Origin: Cystobacter fuscus
GTDB lineage: Bacteria > Myxococcota > Myxococcia > Myxococcales > Myxococcaceae
DNA length: 64,000 bases
NCBI RefSeq assembly: GCF_002305875.1
Contig: NZ_CP022098.1
Span: forward strand, 5,146,001 to 5,210,000
Direction: 5' to 3'
Positions within the stretch are counted from its first letter, which is position 1; every line of letters starts with the position of its first letter. Of the stretch, positions 30,290 to 45,358 are shown piece by piece. The position numbers and the translations under genes were made by a program. The notes under the pieces are model-generated. The model had not been told where the DNA came from. It ran no database searches and saw only the letters and a program-made list of their open reading frames with translations.

Positions 30290-30511
30290 CCTGGCGACCT
30301 CGGCTTCGTCCAAAGGGGGAGCGTGCCGCCCGGTACGGCACCCGGACTCCCACCTGGCAAGGCGGAACATCCGGGCCCCCCACGTCTCTTCCTCACCGCT
30401 CGGGTGGGGGAATCGCAGAGGGCGGGGGCGGGGGACGGCATGACGGGGAGCCTATCTACCATCACCTTGCCGCTGGTGTGTGCTCGCGGGTGGGGATAGA
30501 AGCGGAACGCC

Positions 30512-31126
30512 TTGGCCCGAAAGAAGTTCATCGCGATCGCGGGAAACATCGGCGCGGGGAAGACGGAGCTCACGTCCTTCCTCTGCCGGAAGTACGACCT
30601 CACTCCCTTCTTCGAACCCAACGAGCAGAACCCCTACCTGGCCGACTTCTACGCGGACATGAAGACCTGGGCCTTCCGCTCCCAGCTCTTCTTCCTCACC
30701 ACCAAGTTCCGCCTCCAACGCCAGCTCGAGCGCTCCCCCGGCACCGTCCTGCAGGACCGGACGCTCTACGAGGACGCGGAAATCTTCGCCAAGAACCTCC
30801 ACCGCCAGCGCTTCATCGACAAGCGCGACTGGGCCCTGTACTCGGACCTCTACGAGACGTTCTCCCAGACGCTCGCTCCGCCGGACCTGATGATCTACCT
30901 GCGCTGCCCCGTGCGCACCCTGCGCCAGCGCATCCGTCTGCGCGGACGGGAGATGGAGCAGGATATCCCTCCCTCGTACCTCAAGCGGCTGAACGGCCTG
31001 TACGAGGAATGGTTCAGTGGCTACAAGTTGTCCCCTGTCCTGGTTCTCCCCACGGACAAGCTGGACTATGTGACGGACCTGGTGGACCGCGTGGACCTCT
31101 TGCGACAGATCGAGAAGTACTTGTGA
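30512..31126 (+). CDS. Deoxynucleoside kinase
   Basis: Phosphorylates deoxynucleosides (dA/dG/dC-type salvage kinases of the dNK/DCK family). 204 aa with a TTG start at 30512. P-loop AGNIGAGKTEL, substrate-region PNEQNPYLADFY, the catalytic region QDRTLYEDAEIF (DRS/T-like) and the LID arginines in RIRLRGREMEQDI. Length fits the bacterial dNK family. Exact base preference cannot be told. Its stop overlaps the next gene's GTG start (GTGA), so translation is coupled. Confidence 0.85.
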   Translation: MARKKFIAIAGNIGAGKTELTSFLCRKYDLTPFFEPNEQNPYLADFYADMKTWAFRSQLFFLTTKFRLQRQLERSPGTVLQDRTLYEDAEIFAKNLHRQRFIDKRDWALYSDLYETFSQTLAPPDLMIYLRCPVRTLRQRIRLRGREMEQDIPPSYLKRLNGLYEEWFSGYKLSPVLVLPTDKLDYVTDLVDRVDLLRQIEKYL

Positions 31127-32295
31127 AGGAGGTCTACCTCGTCGCCATCGAGAGCGCCGTGCCGGTGGCTCCCGAGACCCTGCTCGCCTCCTTCGAGACC
31201 GAGGAGATGGCGTTCGTGCTCGCTCCCGACGGGCAGGGCTTCACGCTCGAGGCCGAGGAGACCCGGGTGGAGGTCGTCTTCGAGTCGCGGCCCACCCCCC
31301 GGGAGTGGACGAACGATTTGTTCTCCGGCAGCGAGCCCGCCCTGGAGGCGCTCGGCCGGGCCCGGGCCTTCTACCGTCTGGCCTTCGAGACGGGCTCCGC
31401 CCAGCCCACCGTGCCCGTCTTCGTGGCCCTCATGTGCGCCCGCGTCCTGCTCACCCATGCCACCGGCGTGCTGGTGGACATCACCTCGTCCAAGGTCCAC
31501 GAGGCCGATGACGTGGCGGAGATCACCGAGCTGGACTTCGACATCCGCGACCACGTCAACCTCCACGCCGTGGAGGTCATCGAGGGGGAGACGCCCCTGT
31601 GGGTGCACTCGCACGGCATGGCGAAGTTCGGCGCGAGGGATCTGGAGATCTTCCACCTGGGTGAGCAGGATCTGCTGCCCGCCGAGGCCTTCCTCCACGA
31701 GCTGTGCACGGACCTGGCCTTCGGGCAGGGGCCGCCGCTGCGCACCCAGATGGGCACGAGCGAGGGCCAGCCCTTCATGCTGGTGCCCTCGGACGAGGCG
31801 CGCACCAACCTGCTCGGCGTGCCGCTGGACGCCTTCGAGGGCCACGAGGGCCTCTACCTCACCGTGGTGTCACCCCAGGGCCGGCACAACACGGCGGAGC
31901 TGTTGCGCCCCTTCCGCGAGCGCTTCCTCCAGGAGCCCACCGAGCGCACCGAGTCCATGCACGAGGAGTCCCAGTCGCTCCTGCCCGCCTTCAAGGCGCG
32001 CTTCCTGCGCCGCGGCCTCATGGAGCCGCTCACCTTCCTGGTGCGCGCCCCCTTCGAGACGCACCCGGAGGGCGGTGATGCGACGGAGCAGCTCTGGCTG
32101 GAGGTGCTCTCCTGGGACGACGCCACCATCGTCGGCCGCCTGGTGGATGGCGCCGTGCACACCACCGAGTGGCGCAAGGGCGCCCACGTGGAAGTGCCCG
32201 AGGCGGACGTGAACGCGCTCGCCCTCAGCCGCGAGGGCCGCACCCTGGAGGACGAAGAGGTGCGCGCCCTGCTCCAGGCCGAGCGCCCCAGCTAG
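31123..32295 (+). CDS. DUF2314-containing protein
   Basis: A 390-aa cytoplasmic protein with a GTG start that overlaps the deoxynucleoside kinase stop. The C-terminal 70 residues (LTFLVRAPFETHPE, then EQLWLEVLSWDDATIVGRLV and HVEVPEADVNALAL) match the DUF2314 pattern from memory of the family. The N-terminal part (EVYLVAIESAVPVAPETLLA) has no domain I recognise but contains a central region rich in acidic residues. No signal or membrane segment. Function unknown; the tight coupling suggests expression with the nucleoside kinase. Confidence 0.7.
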   Translation: MKEVYLVAIESAVPVAPETLLASFETEEMAFVLAPDGQGFTLEAEETRVEVVFESRPTPREWTNDLFSGSEPALEALGRARAFYRLAFETGSAQPTVPVFVALMCARVLLTHATGVLVDITSSKVHEADDVAEITELDFDIRDHVNLHAVEVIEGETPLWVHSHGMAKFGARDLEIFHLGEQDLLPAEAFLHELCTDLAFGQGPPLRTQMGTSEGQPFMLVPSDEARTNLLGVPLDAFEGHEGLYLTVVSPQGRHNTAELLRPFRERFLQEPTERTESMHEESQSLLPAFKARFLRRGLMEPLTFLVRAPFETHPEGGDATEQLWLEVLSWDDATIVGRLVDGAVHTTEWRKGAHVEVPEADVNALALSREGRTLEDEEVRALLQAERPS

Positions 32296-32463: not shown

Positions 32464-33096
32464 TCACGCGTCCAGCTCCGGGAAGGTGACCACGCACTCT
32501 CCCGGCTCGATGCCCTCCACGCGGACCCGTCCCTGGGCGTCCACCTTGCCCTCGCGCGTCGAGCCGTCCGGCAGGGTGAGCTTGTAGCCCACTCCCACGA
32601 GTGGCCCGCCCTCCGCGTCCACCAGCTCGAACTCCACCCAGGCCGTGGGCTTCTTCTCCTCTTGCTTTTCCTTCTCGCGCGGAGCGGGGCCCGGTGGCAC
32701 CTGCTCGAGCAGGGGAACGGCGAGCGGAGGGCTCGAGCCCTTCGGCGCCGCGGGAGTGGGCCACTTCTTGAGGCGCACCGGCCCCGCGGGCAGCGCGAGC
32801 AACTCTCCCCGGCGAAAGGCCTCGGCCAGGCGGCTCTTGATGCGTCCGGCCGTCCGCGGATCCTTCAGCGTCGGCTCCCTCACCGGGGGAGTGCCCGTGA
32901 CGGCCTCGTACAATTCGTGAAGCGTGCGCTGGGTGAACGTGGAGGACAGCCACCGGTCCAGCTCGGCCACCAGGAGACTGGCCGACACGAGCTCCTCGGG
33001 CTGCTCGGCCAGGCCAAAGTTCCTCACGATCTGGTAGTTCTGCGTGCGGCCGCGCAGACGCCAGGCTCGCCGGGTATCGATGAATTGTCGTGACAC
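32464..33096 (-). CDS. Protein with C-terminal carboxypeptidase-regulatory-like domain
   Basis: A 210-aa protein. The N-terminal 110 residues are helical and unrecognised. A Pro/Lys/Glu-rich linker leads to a C-terminal domain of about 58 residues (WVEFELVDAEGGPLVGVGYK, then LPDGSTREGKVDAQGRVRVE and PGECVVTFPELDA). This resembles the small beta-sandwich modules often found joined to VgrG, PAAR or other type VI-secretion-related proteins in myxobacteria. A link to secretion is therefore possible but the neighbours do not support it. Convergent with the small basic gene (3 bp gap). Confidence 0.55.
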   Translation of the reverse strand: MSRQFIDTRRAWRLRGRTQNYQIVRNFGLAEQPEELVSASLLVAELDRWLSSTFTQRTLHELYEAVTGTPPVREPTLKDPRTAGRIKSRLAEAFRRGELLALPAGPVRLKKWPTPAAPKGSSPPLAVPLLEQVPPGPAPREKEKQEEKKPTAWVEFELVDAEGGPLVGVGYKLTLPDGSTREGKVDAQGRVRVEGIEPGECVVTFPELDA

Positions 33097-33242: not shown

Positions 33243-34943
33243 ATGCCCTCCCTGCTGCTTCTCTCCGGTCCCAGCGCTGGCCTTCGACATGAACTCCTCG
33301 GAGAGGCGACGATGGGCCGCAGCCCCTCGTGTGAGCTGCCCCTGCCCGAGGACGATCGGATGTCGCGCCGCCACGCGCGCTTCTTCGTGCGCGAGGAGCA
33401 GGTGCACGTGGAGGACCTGGGGTCGCGCAATGGCACCTCGGTCAACGGCGAGCGCATCACCGGCGAGGTGGCGCTGCACCCCGGAGACCGGGTGCAGGTG
33501 GGCAAGACGCTGGTGCTCGTCTCGCCCTCCGGGCCGTCGGTGGGCGTGGGCGAAGCGCGGGGGGCCACGCGCCAGGCGCCCGTCGTGGAGGTGCTGCCCC
33601 ACGTGGGCACCGAGGCGGCGCTGTACTCGGCGGGCGTGGCGCTGCTGGGAGCCACCAGCGAGGCCATGGTGCTGCGGCACCTCGCCGAGCACGCGCTGCA
33701 CGCGCTGCGCGCGGAGACGTCCGCGGCGCTCCTGGGCAGCATCAAGGGCATGCTCACCGCGGCCGTGGTGGGCGCCTCCTCCGTGGAGGTGCCTCGGGAC
33801 ATGGCCCGCGCCGCGATGGAGCACGCCGAGCAGAGCCGCGCGGAGGGGGTGGTGTGCTCGCCCCTGGTGGCCTCGGGTGGTCTTCCCTTCGGCCTGCTCT
33901 ACCTGGAGCGCTCCGAGCCGCCCTTCACCGACGCGGAAGCGCGGCTGGCCGCCATGCTCGGGCGGCTCGGCGGCGAGGCCTATGCCGCGGTGCGCTCGCG
34001 CGCGAGCACGCCGTCCGGACGCGTGGACCTGGTGGGCGGCTCGCGCTCCTTCCGCAAGGTGGTGGAGCAGGCCCGCCGCGCCTCGGCGAGTGACGCCCCC
34101 GTGGTGCTCTTCGGCGAGCCGGGGACTGGCAAGTGCCTGGCCGCCCGCTACATCCACGCGCGCTCTCCCCGGGCGCTCGGGCCGCTCGTGCAGGTGGATT
34201 GCCGGGAGGGCACCTCGCTGGAGGAGGTGCTCTTTGGCCGCGCCAGTACACCCGGCGCGCCGCCCATGCCCTCCGCGCTCCTGCGCGCCGATGGGGGCTC
34301 CCTGTTGCTCCAGCACGTGGAGCGTCTGCCGCGCTTCATGGCCGAGCGGCTCGCCCGGTTGCTCGCGCGAAAGAGCGCTCCCGCGCGCGAGGGAGGCGAG
34401 GAGCCCGTGGACGTGCGGCTCCTGGTCACCACGCACACCCCGCCCCGCATGCTCGCCCTCCAGGGAGAGCTCGACGAGTCGCTCGCCCTGCAGCTGTCGG
34501 GACTGGAGCTGGCGCTGCCCGCGCTGCGCGAGCGGCGCGCCGACATTCCCCAGCTCTTCGAGCGCTTCGCTTCCCGGGGCTCGCGCTCGGGTCGGGAGGC
34601 GCCCCCCGTGCTCACTCCCGAGGCGCGGCGTCTGCTCATGGAATACGCGTGGCCCCACAACGTGCGTGAGCTGGAGTTGCTCAGTGAGCGGCTCGCCCTG
34701 CTGCATGCCGGCGCGAGCATCCCCGTCTCGGCCCTGCCTCCCGAGTTCCACCAGGACGCCGCTCCTCCGTCGCTCTCGCTGCAGGAGCGCGTGTCTCGTT
34801 TGGAACGGGAGACCATCGCCGAGGCCTTGCGCTCGGCGGGGGGACGGAAGATCGTCGCCGCGCGACTGTTGGGCATCAGCCGCCCGACCCTGGACAAGAA
34901 GATCGAGGATTATGGGCTCACCGTTGAGCGCAGACGGGTGTGA
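33243..34943 (+). CDS. FHA-GAF-AAA-Fis regulator with degenerate ATPase
   Basis: A 566-aa regulator with an FHA domain (about 1-95; phosphothreonine-binding Arg26, Ser41, Asn63), a GAF-like middle (about 120-250), a sigma54-activator-type AAA module (about 262-440) and a Fis-type HTH (about 515-560). The Walker A is close to normal (GEPGTGKC, 291-298). The GAFTGA loop that contacts sigma54 is absent (FGRASTPGA instead), and the Walker B LDE is replaced by LQH (Gln357, His358). It therefore probably cannot hydrolyse ATP or activate sigma54 and may act as a DNA-binding adaptor responding to Ser/Thr kinase signals. Upstream of a phosphatase gene, 34 bp apart. Confidence 0.85.
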   Translation: MPSLLLLSGPSAGLRHELLGEATMGRSPSCELPLPEDDRMSRRHARFFVREEQVHVEDLGSRNGTSVNGERITGEVALHPGDRVQVGKTLVLVSPSGPSVGVGEARGATRQAPVVEVLPHVGTEAALYSAGVALLGATSEAMVLRHLAEHALHALRAETSAALLGSIKGMLTAAVVGASSVEVPRDMARAAMEHAEQSRAEGVVCSPLVASGGLPFGLLYLERSEPPFTDAEARLAAMLGRLGGEAYAAVRSRASTPSGRVDLVGGSRSFRKVVEQARRASASDAPVVLFGEPGTGKCLAARYIHARSPRALGPLVQVDCREGTSLEEVLFGRASTPGAPPMPSALLRADGGSLLLQHVERLPRFMAERLARLLARKSAPAREGGEEPVDVRLLVTTHTPPRMLALQGELDESLALQLSGLELALPALRERRADIPQLFERFASRGSRSGREAPPVLTPEARRLLMEYAWPHNVRELELLSERLALLHAGASIPVSALPPEFHQDAAPPSLSLQERVSRLERETIAEALRSAGGRKIVAARLLGISRPTLDKKIEDYGLTVERRRV

Positions 34944-34977: not shown

Positions 34978-35481
34978 ATGGTGGAAATCTGGCCAGGACT
35001 GCACGTCGGCAACGAGCTCGACTACGAGAACACCGTGCGGCATCAGTCGGGGTGGAGCGTCGTCCACGCCTGCAAGGAGCCCTACCATCGCGGGGCCCTG
35101 GGCTACCGCACGCCCCTGGTGCCCGAGGCGCATCCCGAGGCCGTGGTGGCGCGGCGGGGCGCGCGGCTCATGCTCAACCTCGTCGACATGACCGATCCCG
35201 CGTACATCCCCAAGGAAGCCATCGACGCGGCGCTCGCCTTCATCCACGAGGCCCTGGGCGCGGGACAGCGGGTGCTGCTGCACTGCAACCAGGGCGCCTC
35301 GCGCTCGCCCACCATCGCGTTTCTCTATCTGGTGGCGCACACCCAGCGCTTCGCGACCCGGACGTTCGAGGAGGCGCAGCTGGAGTTCCGCGTCCTCTAT
35401 CCCGGGTACGCGCCCGCGCTGGGCATGTATGAGTTCGCGCGGCAGCACTTCGAGGAATACCGGGCCTCGCGTCCCTCCTGA
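34978..35481 (+). CDS. Dual-specificity protein phosphatase family protein
   Basis: A 167-aa cytoplasmic phosphatase. Active-site CX5R loop HCNQGASRSP, with the nucleophilic Cys and the Arg, and an upstream aspartate-containing segment (LVDMTDPAYIP) that may supply the general acid. ATG 34978 after GAGGA; GTG 34969 is an alternative. Located immediately after the FHA regulator, so it may remove phosphates that the FHA domain reads. This pairing is inferred from position only. Confidence 0.8.
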   Translation: MVEIWPGLHVGNELDYENTVRHQSGWSVVHACKEPYHRGALGYRTPLVPEAHPEAVVARRGARLMLNLVDMTDPAYIPKEAIDAALAFIHEALGAGQRVLLHCNQGASRSPTIAFLYLVAHTQRFATRTFEEAQLEFRVLYPGYAPALGMYEFARQHFEEYRASRPS

Positions 35482-35502: not shown

Positions 35503-36411
35503 TCACCGTCTGCGGCTGACGAGCACCCCGGAGATGACGAGCCCCGCGCCCATGGCCTGGACCCAGGTGGGGCGCTCGCCGCGCACGGCCCAGGCGGTGA
35601 GCGCGGCCACCACGGGCGTGCCACTGCTGTAGAGCGCCGTGCGGCTGCTGCCCACCGACTGCACGCTGCGGCTCCAGACGACATAGGCCAGCACCAGGGG
35701 GACGAGCGCCGAGTACACCACGCCCGCCCAGGCGCTCGGGCCGATGGTGGCGCCCTGGAGGGACAGCACCTCGGGCACGCCCAGGAGGATGACGCCCGGG
35801 GCGCCGGTGAGCATGGAGAGCGCGGTGATGCGCAGCGCGGACAGGCCGGGGCCGAGCCAGCGCAGCCCCACGGTGTACAGCGCCCAGCACAGCGAGGCGC
35901 CGAGGATGAAGAGATCTCCCACGCGCGTGGACGCATCCAGTCCCGGGCCCCGCGCCGAGACGATGAGCACCACGCCGGGGATCGCGAGCATGAGCCCCAT
36001 CATCAGCGGCCGGCGCAGCCGCTCCACGCCCAGCAGGGCGCCGAGCAGGGCGGTGAGCACGGGCGTGCCCGAGGAGAGCAGGCCGCTGTTGGCGGCGGTG
36101 GTGTGGGCCACGCCCATGACGAAGCAGAACTGGTAGAGCGTGTGGCCCACGAGCCCGAGCCCCACGAGCTTGAGCACGGTGGCACGGGGCAGGGGAGTGA
36201 AGCCCTCGCGCACATGGAGCACGAGCGCCATGGCGATGGAGGCGATCGCGAAGCGCAGCGACATGAAGGCCAGGGGGGGAATGCTCTCCAGGGCCCCCTT
36301 CACCACCGTGTAGTTCGTCCCCCAGATGAAGATGACGACGATGAGGGTGAGGTCGGACCAGGAGATGGCGCGGGGCGCGGGGACAACGGCGGGGGTGCTG
36401 GTGGCGTTCAA
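35503..36411 (-). CDS. EamA/DMT-family exporter
   Basis: Inner-membrane transporter with two EamA halves and about ten transmembrane helices; 302 aa from a TTG at 36411, the usual family length. First half begins DLTLIVVIFIWGTNYTVVKG, second half VGDLFILGASLCWALYTVGL. A GTG at 36510 would add 33 residues and overlap the divergent psuG start; no ribosome-binding site decides between them. DMT exporters move metabolites such as amino acids; the substrate cannot be named. Confidence 0.8.
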   Translation of the reverse strand: MNATSTPAVVPAPRAISWSDLTLIVVIFIWGTNYTVVKGALESIPPLAFMSLRFAIASIAMALVLHVREGFTPLPRATVLKLVGLGLVGHTLYQFCFVMGVAHTTAANSGLLSSGTPVLTALLGALLGVERLRRPLMMGLMLAIPGVVLIVSARGPGLDASTRVGDLFILGASLCWALYTVGLRWLGPGLSALRITALSMLTGAPGVILLGVPEVLSLQGATIGPSAWAGVVYSALVPLVLAYVVWSRSVQSVGSSRTALYSSGTPVVAALTAWAVRGERPTWVQAMGAGLVISGVLVSRRR

Positions 36412-36504
36412 GGCGGGGGCGGAATAGCGCTGGTGGACGACGCTGGCAACCGGGGGCCATCTTCCGCACTTGTCCCGCCGGTAAGGCCATGGCGTATTGG
36501 GCCC

Positions 36505-37425
36505 ATGCACTTGCGTTACTCAGAAGAGGTGCGGCGCGCTCGGGAGCAGGGCGTGCCGTTGGTGGCACAGGAGACGAGCGTGGTGGCCCAGGGGCTGCCC
36601 TATCCGGACAACCTCGGGGCGGCCCGGGCCTGTGAGGAAGCCGTGCGCCGAGCGGGTGCCGTGCCTGCTCCCATCGCCGTGGTGGACGGGGAGGTGTGGG
36701 TGGGGCTGGAGGAGGCGCACATGCGCCGGCTCGCCGAGGGCAAGGAGCGCCTGCTCAAGCTCGCCTCGCGCGATCTGGCGGTGGCCATCGCCCAGAAGGC
36801 CACGGGAGGCACCACCGTGAGCGCCACGTGCGAGGTGGCCGCCGCCGCGGGCATCCGCGTCTTCGCCACCGGCGGCATTGGCGGCGTGCACCGCGGGGTC
36901 GCCGAGCAGATGGACATCTCCCAGGACATCTGGGCGCTGACACGCTTCCCCGTGGCGGTGGTGTGCGCCGGGGCCAAGTCCGTGCTGGATCTGCCCAAGA
37001 CGCTCGAGGCGCTGGAGACCGCGGCCGTGCCCGTGCTCGGGGTGGGCACCGATGAGCTGCCGTCCTTCTACAGCCGCTCGTCCGGGCTGCCCCTGGAGCA
37101 CCGCGTGGAGGATGCCGCCAGCGCGGCGGCGATCTGCCGCGCCCGCTTCGAGACGCTGGGGCAGGGCGGCCTGCTCTTCACCGTGCCTCCGCCCGAGGAG
37201 ACGGCGCTGCCGCGCGCCGAGGTGGAACTGCACATCGCCTCGGCGCTGGCGGAGGCCGAGCGGCAGGGCATCCGCGGCAAGGCGGTGACCCCCTTCCTGC
37301 TCTCGGAGATGGCCCGGCGCACGAGCGGCAAGACGCTGCGCGCCAACCTCGCCCTGCTCACCAACAACGCCCGTTTCGCCGGACAGCTCGCGGTGGCATA
37401 CGCCCAGGGCGCTGCGGGGCGCTGA
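36505..37425 (+). CDS. psuG: Pseudouridine-5'-phosphate glycosidase
   Basis: Cleaves pseudouridine 5'-phosphate to uracil and ribose 5-phosphate in pseudouridine breakdown. 306 aa from ATG 36505, normal length. Family segments: ETSVVAQGLPYPDN near the start, ATGGTTVSATCEVAAAAGI with the lysine-bearing region before it (AIAQKATGG), FATGGIGGVHRG, and the C-terminal LTNNARFAGQLAVAYA. The partner kinase PsuK is not adjacent. A terminator-like hairpin lies 22 bp downstream. Confidence 0.93.
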   Translation: MHLRYSEEVRRAREQGVPLVAQETSVVAQGLPYPDNLGAARACEEAVRRAGAVPAPIAVVDGEVWVGLEEAHMRRLAEGKERLLKLASRDLAVAIAQKATGGTTVSATCEVAAAAGIRVFATGGIGGVHRGVAEQMDISQDIWALTRFPVAVVCAGAKSVLDLPKTLEALETAAVPVLGVGTDELPSFYSRSSGLPLEHRVEDAASAAAICRARFETLGQGGLLFTVPPPEETALPRAEVELHIASALAEAERQGIRGKAVTPFLLSEMARRTSGKTLRANLALLTNNARFAGQLAVAYAQGAAGR

Positions 37426-44479: not shown

Positions 44480-45358
44480 ATGGGTCAGAACGAGACCGTC
44501 GTCACGGTCATCTCGAAGATTTCCGAGCGGCCAGTCGATCTCGACGCGGCGCTGGTGGTGATCTACGGCCTGGAGCTGGGGCGCAAGTACGACCTGTGCA
44601 AGACGGAGACGCTCATTGGCCGCTCGGCCAAGGCGGAGATCCAGGTGGACCAGGAGTCCATCAGCCGCAACCACGCGTGCATCACCACGAGCAAGCGGGG
44701 GGTGTTCATCAAGGACCTGGAGTCGACGAACGGCACGTTCGTGAACGACGAGCCGGTGCGGGGGGAGACGCCCCTGTGCAATGGGGACCTGGTGAAGATT
44801 GGCCGGACGATCTTCAAGTTCATCGCCGGGGGGAACATCGAGACGGCGTACCACGATGAGATCTACCGGCTGACGACGATGGACGGGCTGACGCAGATCT
44901 ACAACCGGCGCTACTTCGAGGAGGCGCTGGAGCGCGAGGTGTCACGCTCGCGCCGCTACGAGCGCAGCCTGGCGCTGGTGATGTTCGACGTGGATCACTT
45001 CAAGCGGGTGAATGATCAGCACGGGCACCTGGCGGGGGACTACGTGCTCAAGCAGCTCGCCTCCACGCTGCGCACGCGCATCCGCCGCGAGGACGTGTTC
45101 GCGCGCTATGGCGGGGAGGAGTTCGGGATGCTGCTGCCCGAGGTCGATGTCGCGGGAGCGGTGAAGCTGGCGGAGAAGGCGCGCCGGCTGGTGGAGAAAC
45201 AGCGCTTCGAGTTCGACAACACCCTGATTCCCATCTCCATCTCGCTGGGGGTGGCGGTGCTGGGGTCGGGGCACCGGGACTCGGTGGACTTGAAGCGGGC
45301 CGCGGACGCGAAGCTGTACGAGGCGAAGGCGGCGGGCCGCAACCGCGTCTGCGCGTGA
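44480..45358 (+). CDS. FHA-domain diguanylate cyclase
   Basis: Makes cyclic di-GMP from two GTP. 292 aa: an FHA domain (about 25-115; Arg48, Ser62-Arg63, Asn84) then a GGDEF domain (about 130-290). The active site is GGEEF (211-215), complete. An RxxD I-site (RRED, 202-205) stands five residues before it, so product feedback inhibition is expected. The FHA domain should tie c-di-GMP synthesis to a Ser/Thr protein kinase. ATG 44480 lies 43 bp after the lipoprotein gene, with a CCAGGG/CCCTGG palindrome (44447-44461) between. Confidence 0.9.
   Translation: MGQNETVVTVISKISERPVDLDAALVVIYGLELGRKYDLCKTETLIGRSAKAEIQVDQESISRNHACITTSKRGVFIKDLESTNGTFVNDEPVRGETPLCNGDLVKIGRTIFKFIAGGNIETAYHDEIYRLTTMDGLTQIYNRRYFEEALEREVSRSRRYERSLALVMFDVDHFKRVNDQHGHLAGDYVLKQLASTLRTRIRREDVFARYGGEEFGMLLPEVDVAGAVKLAEKARRLVEKQRFEFDNTLIPISISLGVAVLGSGHRDSVDLKRAADAKLYEAKAAGRNRVCA

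Follow-up and report, generated by a model that had tools for sequence, protein, structure and literature searches.

A putative catalytically dead EBP derivative with conserved FHA and HTH ends beside nucleoside-salvage-type genes of Cystobacter fuscus and related genomes

What can a regulator of the sigma54-activator (EBP) superfamily still do once the parts of its motor have gone, and for which genes? This question is raised by a gene at 33243-34943 (+) of the window, by which we mean the whole stretch of 64,000 nucleotides of Cystobacter fuscus DNA analysed here; we refer to its product, an FHA-GAF-pseudoAAA-HTH regulator, as pEBP. Labels beginning with G and L denote the genomes and loci of the analysis, respectively, G000 being the window's own genome.

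The lost motor elements of pEBP

The features of the regulator gene, all on the plus strand, are as follows.

33243..34943, +, pEBP, FHA-GAF-pseudoAAA-HTH regulator, 566 aa, open frame without stops
33243..33518, +, FHA domain, residues 1-92 (Pfam; ortholog conservation)
33609..33992, +, GAF-like domain, residues about 123-250 (Pfam match below the cut-off; helices and strands in the AlphaFold2 model)
34026..34526, +, AAA core, residues 262-428, catalytic residues gone, fold retained in the model (Pfam, alignment, AlphaFold2, Foldseek)
34113..34136, +, Walker A, GEPGTGKC (alignment)
34230..34256, +, site of the GAFTGA loop, LFGRASTPG, motif missing (alignment, 3-residue gap)
34293..34316, +, position of Walker B, GGSLLLQH, QH in place of DE (alignment)
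34464..34496, +, Arg-finger segment, GELDESLALQL (canonical GRFREDLYYRL), without both Arg (alignment)
34527..34757, +, AAA lid, residues 429-505, present also in the mini-protein described below (Pfam)
34776..34940, +, Fis-type HTH, recognition helix GISRPTLDKK (Pfam, ortholog conservation)

Pfam matches above the cut-off covered FHA (residues 23-87), Sigma54_activat (264-423, 70.7 bits), the AAA lid (429-507) and HTH_8 (519-557) of the 566-aa protein, and a GAF match (PF01590, 180-242) fell just under it (20.4 bits against a cut-off of 22.4); the GAF domain had been absent from the description of the regulator in an earlier note on this DNA. An AlphaFold2 model based on 15 sequences had a mean pLDDT of 77, rising to about 87 in the AAA core, confidence being poor for residues 1-40 and for the linker between FHA and GAF, and its best Foldseek matches were the AAA parts of NtrX, FleQ, ZraR and VpsR. 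In this model the AAA fold is retained although the motor parts are gone, and the Sigma54_activat, AAA-lid and Fis-type HTH domains, the Foldseek matches and the tree described below place the protein by descent within the EBP superfamily. A second FHA match in the window lies at 44552-44818 (+), inside a 306-aa ORF.

Alignment with canonical EBPs bore out what the earlier note had reported, i.e., that the GAFTGA loop is missing and LQH replaces the LDE of Walker B, with Walker A and the Fis-type HTH still present: the loop reads LFGRASTP---G, the motif being gone and a 3-residue gap opened, Walker B reads GGSLLLQH versus the canonical GGTLFLDE, and GEPGTGKC (Walker A, GxxxxGK) and LGISRPTLDKK (HTH) are both recognizable. 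The two arginines of FREDLYYR are the Arg fingers of EBPs, and neither remains in pEBP (GELDESLALQL versus GRFREDLYYRL), a loss that the earlier note did not mention. GAFTGA, the Walker B DE and the Arg fingers are hallmarks of active sigma54 EBPs, and their absence from the window protein supports the further claim of that note, that the regulator should not be a sigma54 activator; we infer that pEBP would neither hydrolyse ATP nor remodel sigma54 polymerase.

The window's genome (12.35 Mb, one contig) provides a direct comparison: it has 55 PF00158 matches, 49 of them EBP-like and the other six below 36 bits, and a single match to the sigma54 DNA-binding domain. Walker B DE is retained in all 48 other EBPs and a GAFTGA-type loop in 47 of the 48; the second Arg-finger position is kept in 48/48 and the first in 44/48, with Lys in the remaining four. 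Set against these counts, the losses in the window protein are not a chance feature. This protein, which also has the lowest PF00158 score of the 49 (74 bits; the next is 109), is the sole one of the genome's EBPs without a catalytic centre. A second EBP lacking GAFTGA in this genome, L181 (G000:C1:8383300-8386000), resembles pEBP in that its loop is deleted (LFGGLR---ADE) and in that an FHA match lies within the same 480-aa ORF; unlike pEBP it has an intact Walker B DE and Arg fingers, and its HTH is different.

Conservation, selection and descent

A search at E<=1e-60 in 147 genomes of the class identified pEBP orthologs in 85 (75 of the 116 good-quality genomes), four of them cut by contig ends; among the aligned set, full orthologs span 557-574 aa. 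Myxococcus eversor and M. vastator have orthologs. The earlier note had called for a check on whether the substitutions are conserved in relatives, and they are: not one of the 85 orthologs has GAFTGA or the Walker B DE, the first Arg-finger position is Arg in 0/85, and the second in 1/85. An arginine stands one position ahead of the second finger in 68 of the 85, the window protein not being among them, so that a shifted finger is thinkable in those proteins and not in that of the window. Of the 84 orthologs covering the P-loop residue of Walker A, 65 have Lys, as does the window protein, and 19 have Arg, a pattern suggesting that Walker A is eroding. The spread of these losses over the orthologs shows the state to be an old one.

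The two ends of the protein are conserved. GRS, SxxH and NG residues make up the conserved phosphothreonine-reader motif of FHA domains, and these are present in the pEBP orthologs, with GRS, SRxH, NGT and NG invariant in all 82 that cover them; in the recognition helix, R547, T549, L550, D551 and K553 occur in 84/84. Mean pairwise identity, calculated over 81 of the 85 orthologs with the four contig-cut rows omitted, was highest in the HTH (0.753), followed by FHA (0.674), GAF (0.673), AAA core (0.643), lid (0.632) and linker (0.502). Across nine chosen pairs, dN/dS was 0.016-0.406 for the whole protein and 0-0.43 for the AAA core, and in the lid it reached 0.586, in one pair. By these dN/dS values and the domain conservation, pEBP is selected for function and is not decaying; it is under purifying selection, which is somewhat looser on the AAA part than on either end. 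The possibility of a decaying pseudogene was considered and is ruled out by the 85 open frames (no stop in the matched spans), dN/dS and conservation.

To place pEBP among EBPs we built a quick tree with the catalytic columns removed, comprising 23 of the 85 pEBP rows plus a homolog from G042, 19 other sister candidates and 47 of the 49 EBPs of the window's genome (the window's own EBP is shown as G000, L174 was omitted as cut, and candidate L272 fell outside the sister clade). All 24 pEBP rows formed one clade (SH-aLRT 98); its sister position to 18 FHA-GAF EBPs had an SH-aLRT of 93, short of the 95 needed for a star. These sister proteins share the order FHA-GAF-AAA-HTH with pEBP at 33-39% identity (most near full length, three partial) and also its recognition helix, as GISRPTLDRK in 16/18 rows (L271 differs, L273 is cut). 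They retain the catalytic elements of which pEBP has none: GAFTGA in 17/18 (L271 has GAVAGA), and Walker B DE and both Arg fingers in 18/18. The simplest reading is that catalysis was lost once, before these families diverged.

Two members of the series are further reduced. The homolog in G042, a genome of a different family, belongs to the pEBP clade and is more eroded, residues between Walker A and Walker B being deleted; its gene directly precedes a PF04227 gene in the same direction. In G014 (L251:3509-4282, +) we identified 257 aa in one frame in which FHA is fused to the AAA lid and HTH, with neither GAF nor AAA core; the gene occupies the slot between the DUF and PF04227 genes described below, and its TGA stop abuts the ATG of the next gene. 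This FHA-lid-HTH mini-protein was the only such match among the 147 genomes; as it comes from a single assembly, of about 910 contigs, it needs confirmation.

The sister clade bears on an antagonist role, which the earlier note had raised and in which pEBP would compete for the sites of an intact FHA-GAF EBP or form dead hetero-oligomers with it. Such a role is consistent with the shared recognition helix and with the presence of pEBP in 16 of the 18 sister genomes (G055 and G024 lack it), and EBPs are said to act as hetero-oligomers, to go by the title of Volz et al. 2012. The intact sister speaks for that part of the claim, but a full-length FHA paralog is lacking from the window's genome, where the best other match (3.1e-42) is confined to the AAA-HTH part, and none of the other EBPs listed for this genome has a TLD helix (L174 is cut before the HTH). 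In addition, 69 of the 85 pEBP genomes lie outside the 16 with a known sister; only seven candidates were scored per genome, so sisters may be missed, and sister-like matches were also present in G112 and G131, outside the 18 rows. We therefore regard a dominant antagonist as improbable. The Myxococcus xanthus EBPs MXAN_4899 and HsfA are reported to regulate secondary metabolites, motility and development (PMC4880591), which fits interplay of this kind. MXAN_4899 is like pEBP in being a myxobacterial EBP, and three papers tie it to motility, fruiting and secondary metabolites (PMC4880591, PMC7910581, PMC12773805). It was considered as a pEBP ortholog and rejected by length alone, since its ancestor-strain form is given as 459 aa (PMC12773805) versus the 557-574 aa of full pEBP orthologs; we take it to be a different gene.

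The gene neighbourhood, the downstream phosphatase and upstream DNA

The genes surrounding pEBP in the window are as follows.

30512..31126, +, deoxynucleoside kinase (dNK, PF01712), conserved neighbour (Pfam)
31129..32295, +, DUF2314/DUF4026-like protein, conserved neighbour, 2 nt past the kinase (Pfam)
32464..33096, -, 210-aa protein between the DUF gene and the regulator (no Pfam match)
34978..35481, +, dual-specificity phosphatase (DUSP), 34 nt downstream of the regulator (DSPc, 35.6 bits versus a cut-off of 33.5)
35503..36510, -, EamA transporter between the regulator and the PF04227 gene (Pfam)
36496..37425, +, PF04227 (Indigoidine_A) protein, conserved neighbour (profile match)

The PF04227 family presumably holds pseudouridine-5'-phosphate glycosidase; no NCBIfam match was found for this neighbour. 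Many of the stretches from 84 other genomes had flanks of 1.5 kb or stopped at the end of a contig, and the counts are therefore lower bounds. On these stretches pEBP is accompanied by dNK in at least 80, the DUF2314-like gene in at least 79, PF04227 in at least 74, EamA in at least 54, an acyltransferase in at least 53 and a lytic transglycosylase in at least seven. The conserved partners of pEBP are thus nucleoside-salvage-type genes. For the spacing, gene starts were estimated from homology: the kinase stop lies 2 nt from the DUF start in 63/78, the DUF stop 12-66 nt from the pEBP start in 73/79, and the pEBP stop within 72 nt of the PF04227 start, estimated overlaps included, in 16/72. The partner genes are more widely spread than pEBP, the kinase occurring in 123, PF04227 in 122 and DUF in 91 of the 147 genomes. 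In eight genomes that lack pEBP (G017, G031, G107, G108, G009, G023, G024 and G029) the DUF and PF04227 genes are contiguous, the kinase gene not being seen on the stretch in three of these (G009, G023 and G029); the stretch of G027 is cut before this junction. Gene adjacency does not prove that pEBP regulates the operon.

In the window's genome and two congeners the DUF gene and pEBP are 939-950 nt apart. The regulator is flanked there by the 210-aa gene (-) and the phosphatase gene (+), each of which was found beside pEBP in 2/84 stretches, in the same two congeners, and is absent from the 82 others; that the pair stands beside pEBP in three genomes only suggests recent insertions on both sides.

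The phosphatase ORF directly after the regulator, in which the earlier note saw a possible reversible Ser/Thr switch, is real: the DUSP lies on the same strand, scores above the DSPc cut-off and has an intact CX5R signature (HCNQGASRS). Its proposed action, removal of the phosphate read by FHA, would suit this position and the fact that the two genes adjoin in three of the four genomes of the genus. Against it, a DUSP was found in just 4 of the 147 genomes (E<=1e-10), adjoining the regulator in three, all of the same genus, and the fourth congener, G002, has kept the regulator and lacks the DUSP. The sole match outside the genus (G101, genus g26; L243:3507-3995; 62% identity, signature HCNQGGSRA) is on another contig, away from the regulator's neighbours. 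As a generally conserved partner the DUSP was accordingly rejected; the switch claim does not hold as a general rule, and we consider a phosphatase-coupled Ser/Thr switch very improbable.

Upstream of dNK and of pEBP the window has no sigma54 consensus match (up to two mismatches allowed), which may fit a promoter of another type, and the 13 matches in the window as a whole are fewer than the shuffle mean of 27. By eye, a CACC-N8-GGTG dyad near -50, ahead of the kinase gene, looked promising as an operator, and counts did not bear this out: in 65 genomes with enough upstream DNA it occurred, within one mismatch, in 29/59 upstream regions of pEBP-carrying and 4/6 of pEBP-lacking genomes, and in 331/1300 mononucleotide shuffles. 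Because the upstream regions are mutually related and the matches fall at several positions we do not claim this dyad, and the test yielded no operator upstream of the kinase gene in these genomes. A conserved block at 30400-30512, ahead of the kinase gene (TCTACCA... CACCTTG...CTGGTG...GGGGTTACAAG), is by eye common to several genera and is also present in four g15 genomes without the regulator; it is probably the promoter of the operon.

Mode of action and meaning

With the motor parts lost and the phosphate-reading and DNA-binding ends kept, pEBP probably switches genes without the usual motor. The reading we favour, with some confidence, is that pEBP is a catalytically dead EBP derivative that serves as a sigma54-independent, FHA-gated DNA-binding regulator, probably of the dNK-DUF-(pEBP)-PF04227 operon, and perhaps more likely a repressor than an activator. 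In this scheme a Ser/Thr kinase would place a phosphothreonine, in cis or on a partner, and its docking by FHA is predicted to gate assembly or binding; the AAA core and lid would provide a scaffold for dimerisation or oligomerisation, and the Fis-type HTH would bind DNA at a non-sigma54 promoter, the likely target being the nucleoside-salvage-type operon that houses pEBP. Conservation of FHA and HTH, and the natural occurrence of an FHA-lid-HTH mini-protein, agree with the phospho-dependent DNA-binding role that the earlier note had suggested.

Alternatively, DNA-bound pEBP may help the housekeeping polymerase as a sigma70-type activator, with or without nucleotide binding and without hydrolysis. 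There are precedents: Rhodobacter capsulatus NtrC and Vibrio VpsR, which lack GAFTGA, are reported to act at sigma70 promoters without ATP hydrolysis (PMC10274813), TyrR, DhaR and HupR are described as depending on sigma70 (PMC3162934), and most of the GAFTGA-less EBPs listed are reported to use sigma70 promoters (PMC10274813, PMC3162934). The AAA fold preserved in the model, and the Walker A Lys of 65/84 orthologs including the window's protein, would agree with this. On the other hand, the P-loop Arg in 19/84 and the complete absence of the AAA core from the G014 version suggest that nucleotide binding is not generally needed, and there is no direct sign of activation by pEBP; we view the activator reading as possible though less probable, and lean slightly towards the repressor.

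Loss of the sigma54-contact loop is itself known from R. capsulatus and Caulobacter NtrC, V. cholerae VpsR, E. coli TyrR and DhaR, and R. capsulatus HupR. According to PMC10274813 three of these proteins differ in what they need of the nucleotide site: Caulobacter NtrC requires Walker A and B residues, R. capsulatus NtrC requires ATP binding, and VpsR is reported not to need ATP. In pEBP, Walker B and the Arg fingers are gone as well, and it differs from this group in its FHA-GAF input and in that one version is core-less. EBPs without GAFTGA are thus already known, and what the pEBP clade adds is, as read from the alignments, the loss of Walker B and Arg fingers under purifying selection. Among the literature matches listed, no title or opening of an abstract concerned a catalytically dead FHA-EBP or psuG regulation through an FHA protein, which does not prove that such reports are absent.

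More speculatively, and as a scenario that we would put forward only tentatively, an ATP-driven sigma54 activator may have turned once, in a myxobacterial lineage, into an ATP-free transcription factor, gated by Ser/Thr-kinase signalling via FHA, that controls deoxynucleoside kinase and pseudouridine-phosphate salvage from within the operon, the AAA ring being dismantled stepwise, from the loop and catalysis through the deeper core deletion of G042 to the whole core in G014. Together the pEBP clade, its intact sister and the core-less version form an evolutionary series for EBP function without a motor, and the conserved operon offers a concrete target on which pEBP can be tested. The FHA domain, in turn, suggests that nucleoside salvage in these bacteria may be under Ser/Thr-kinase control.
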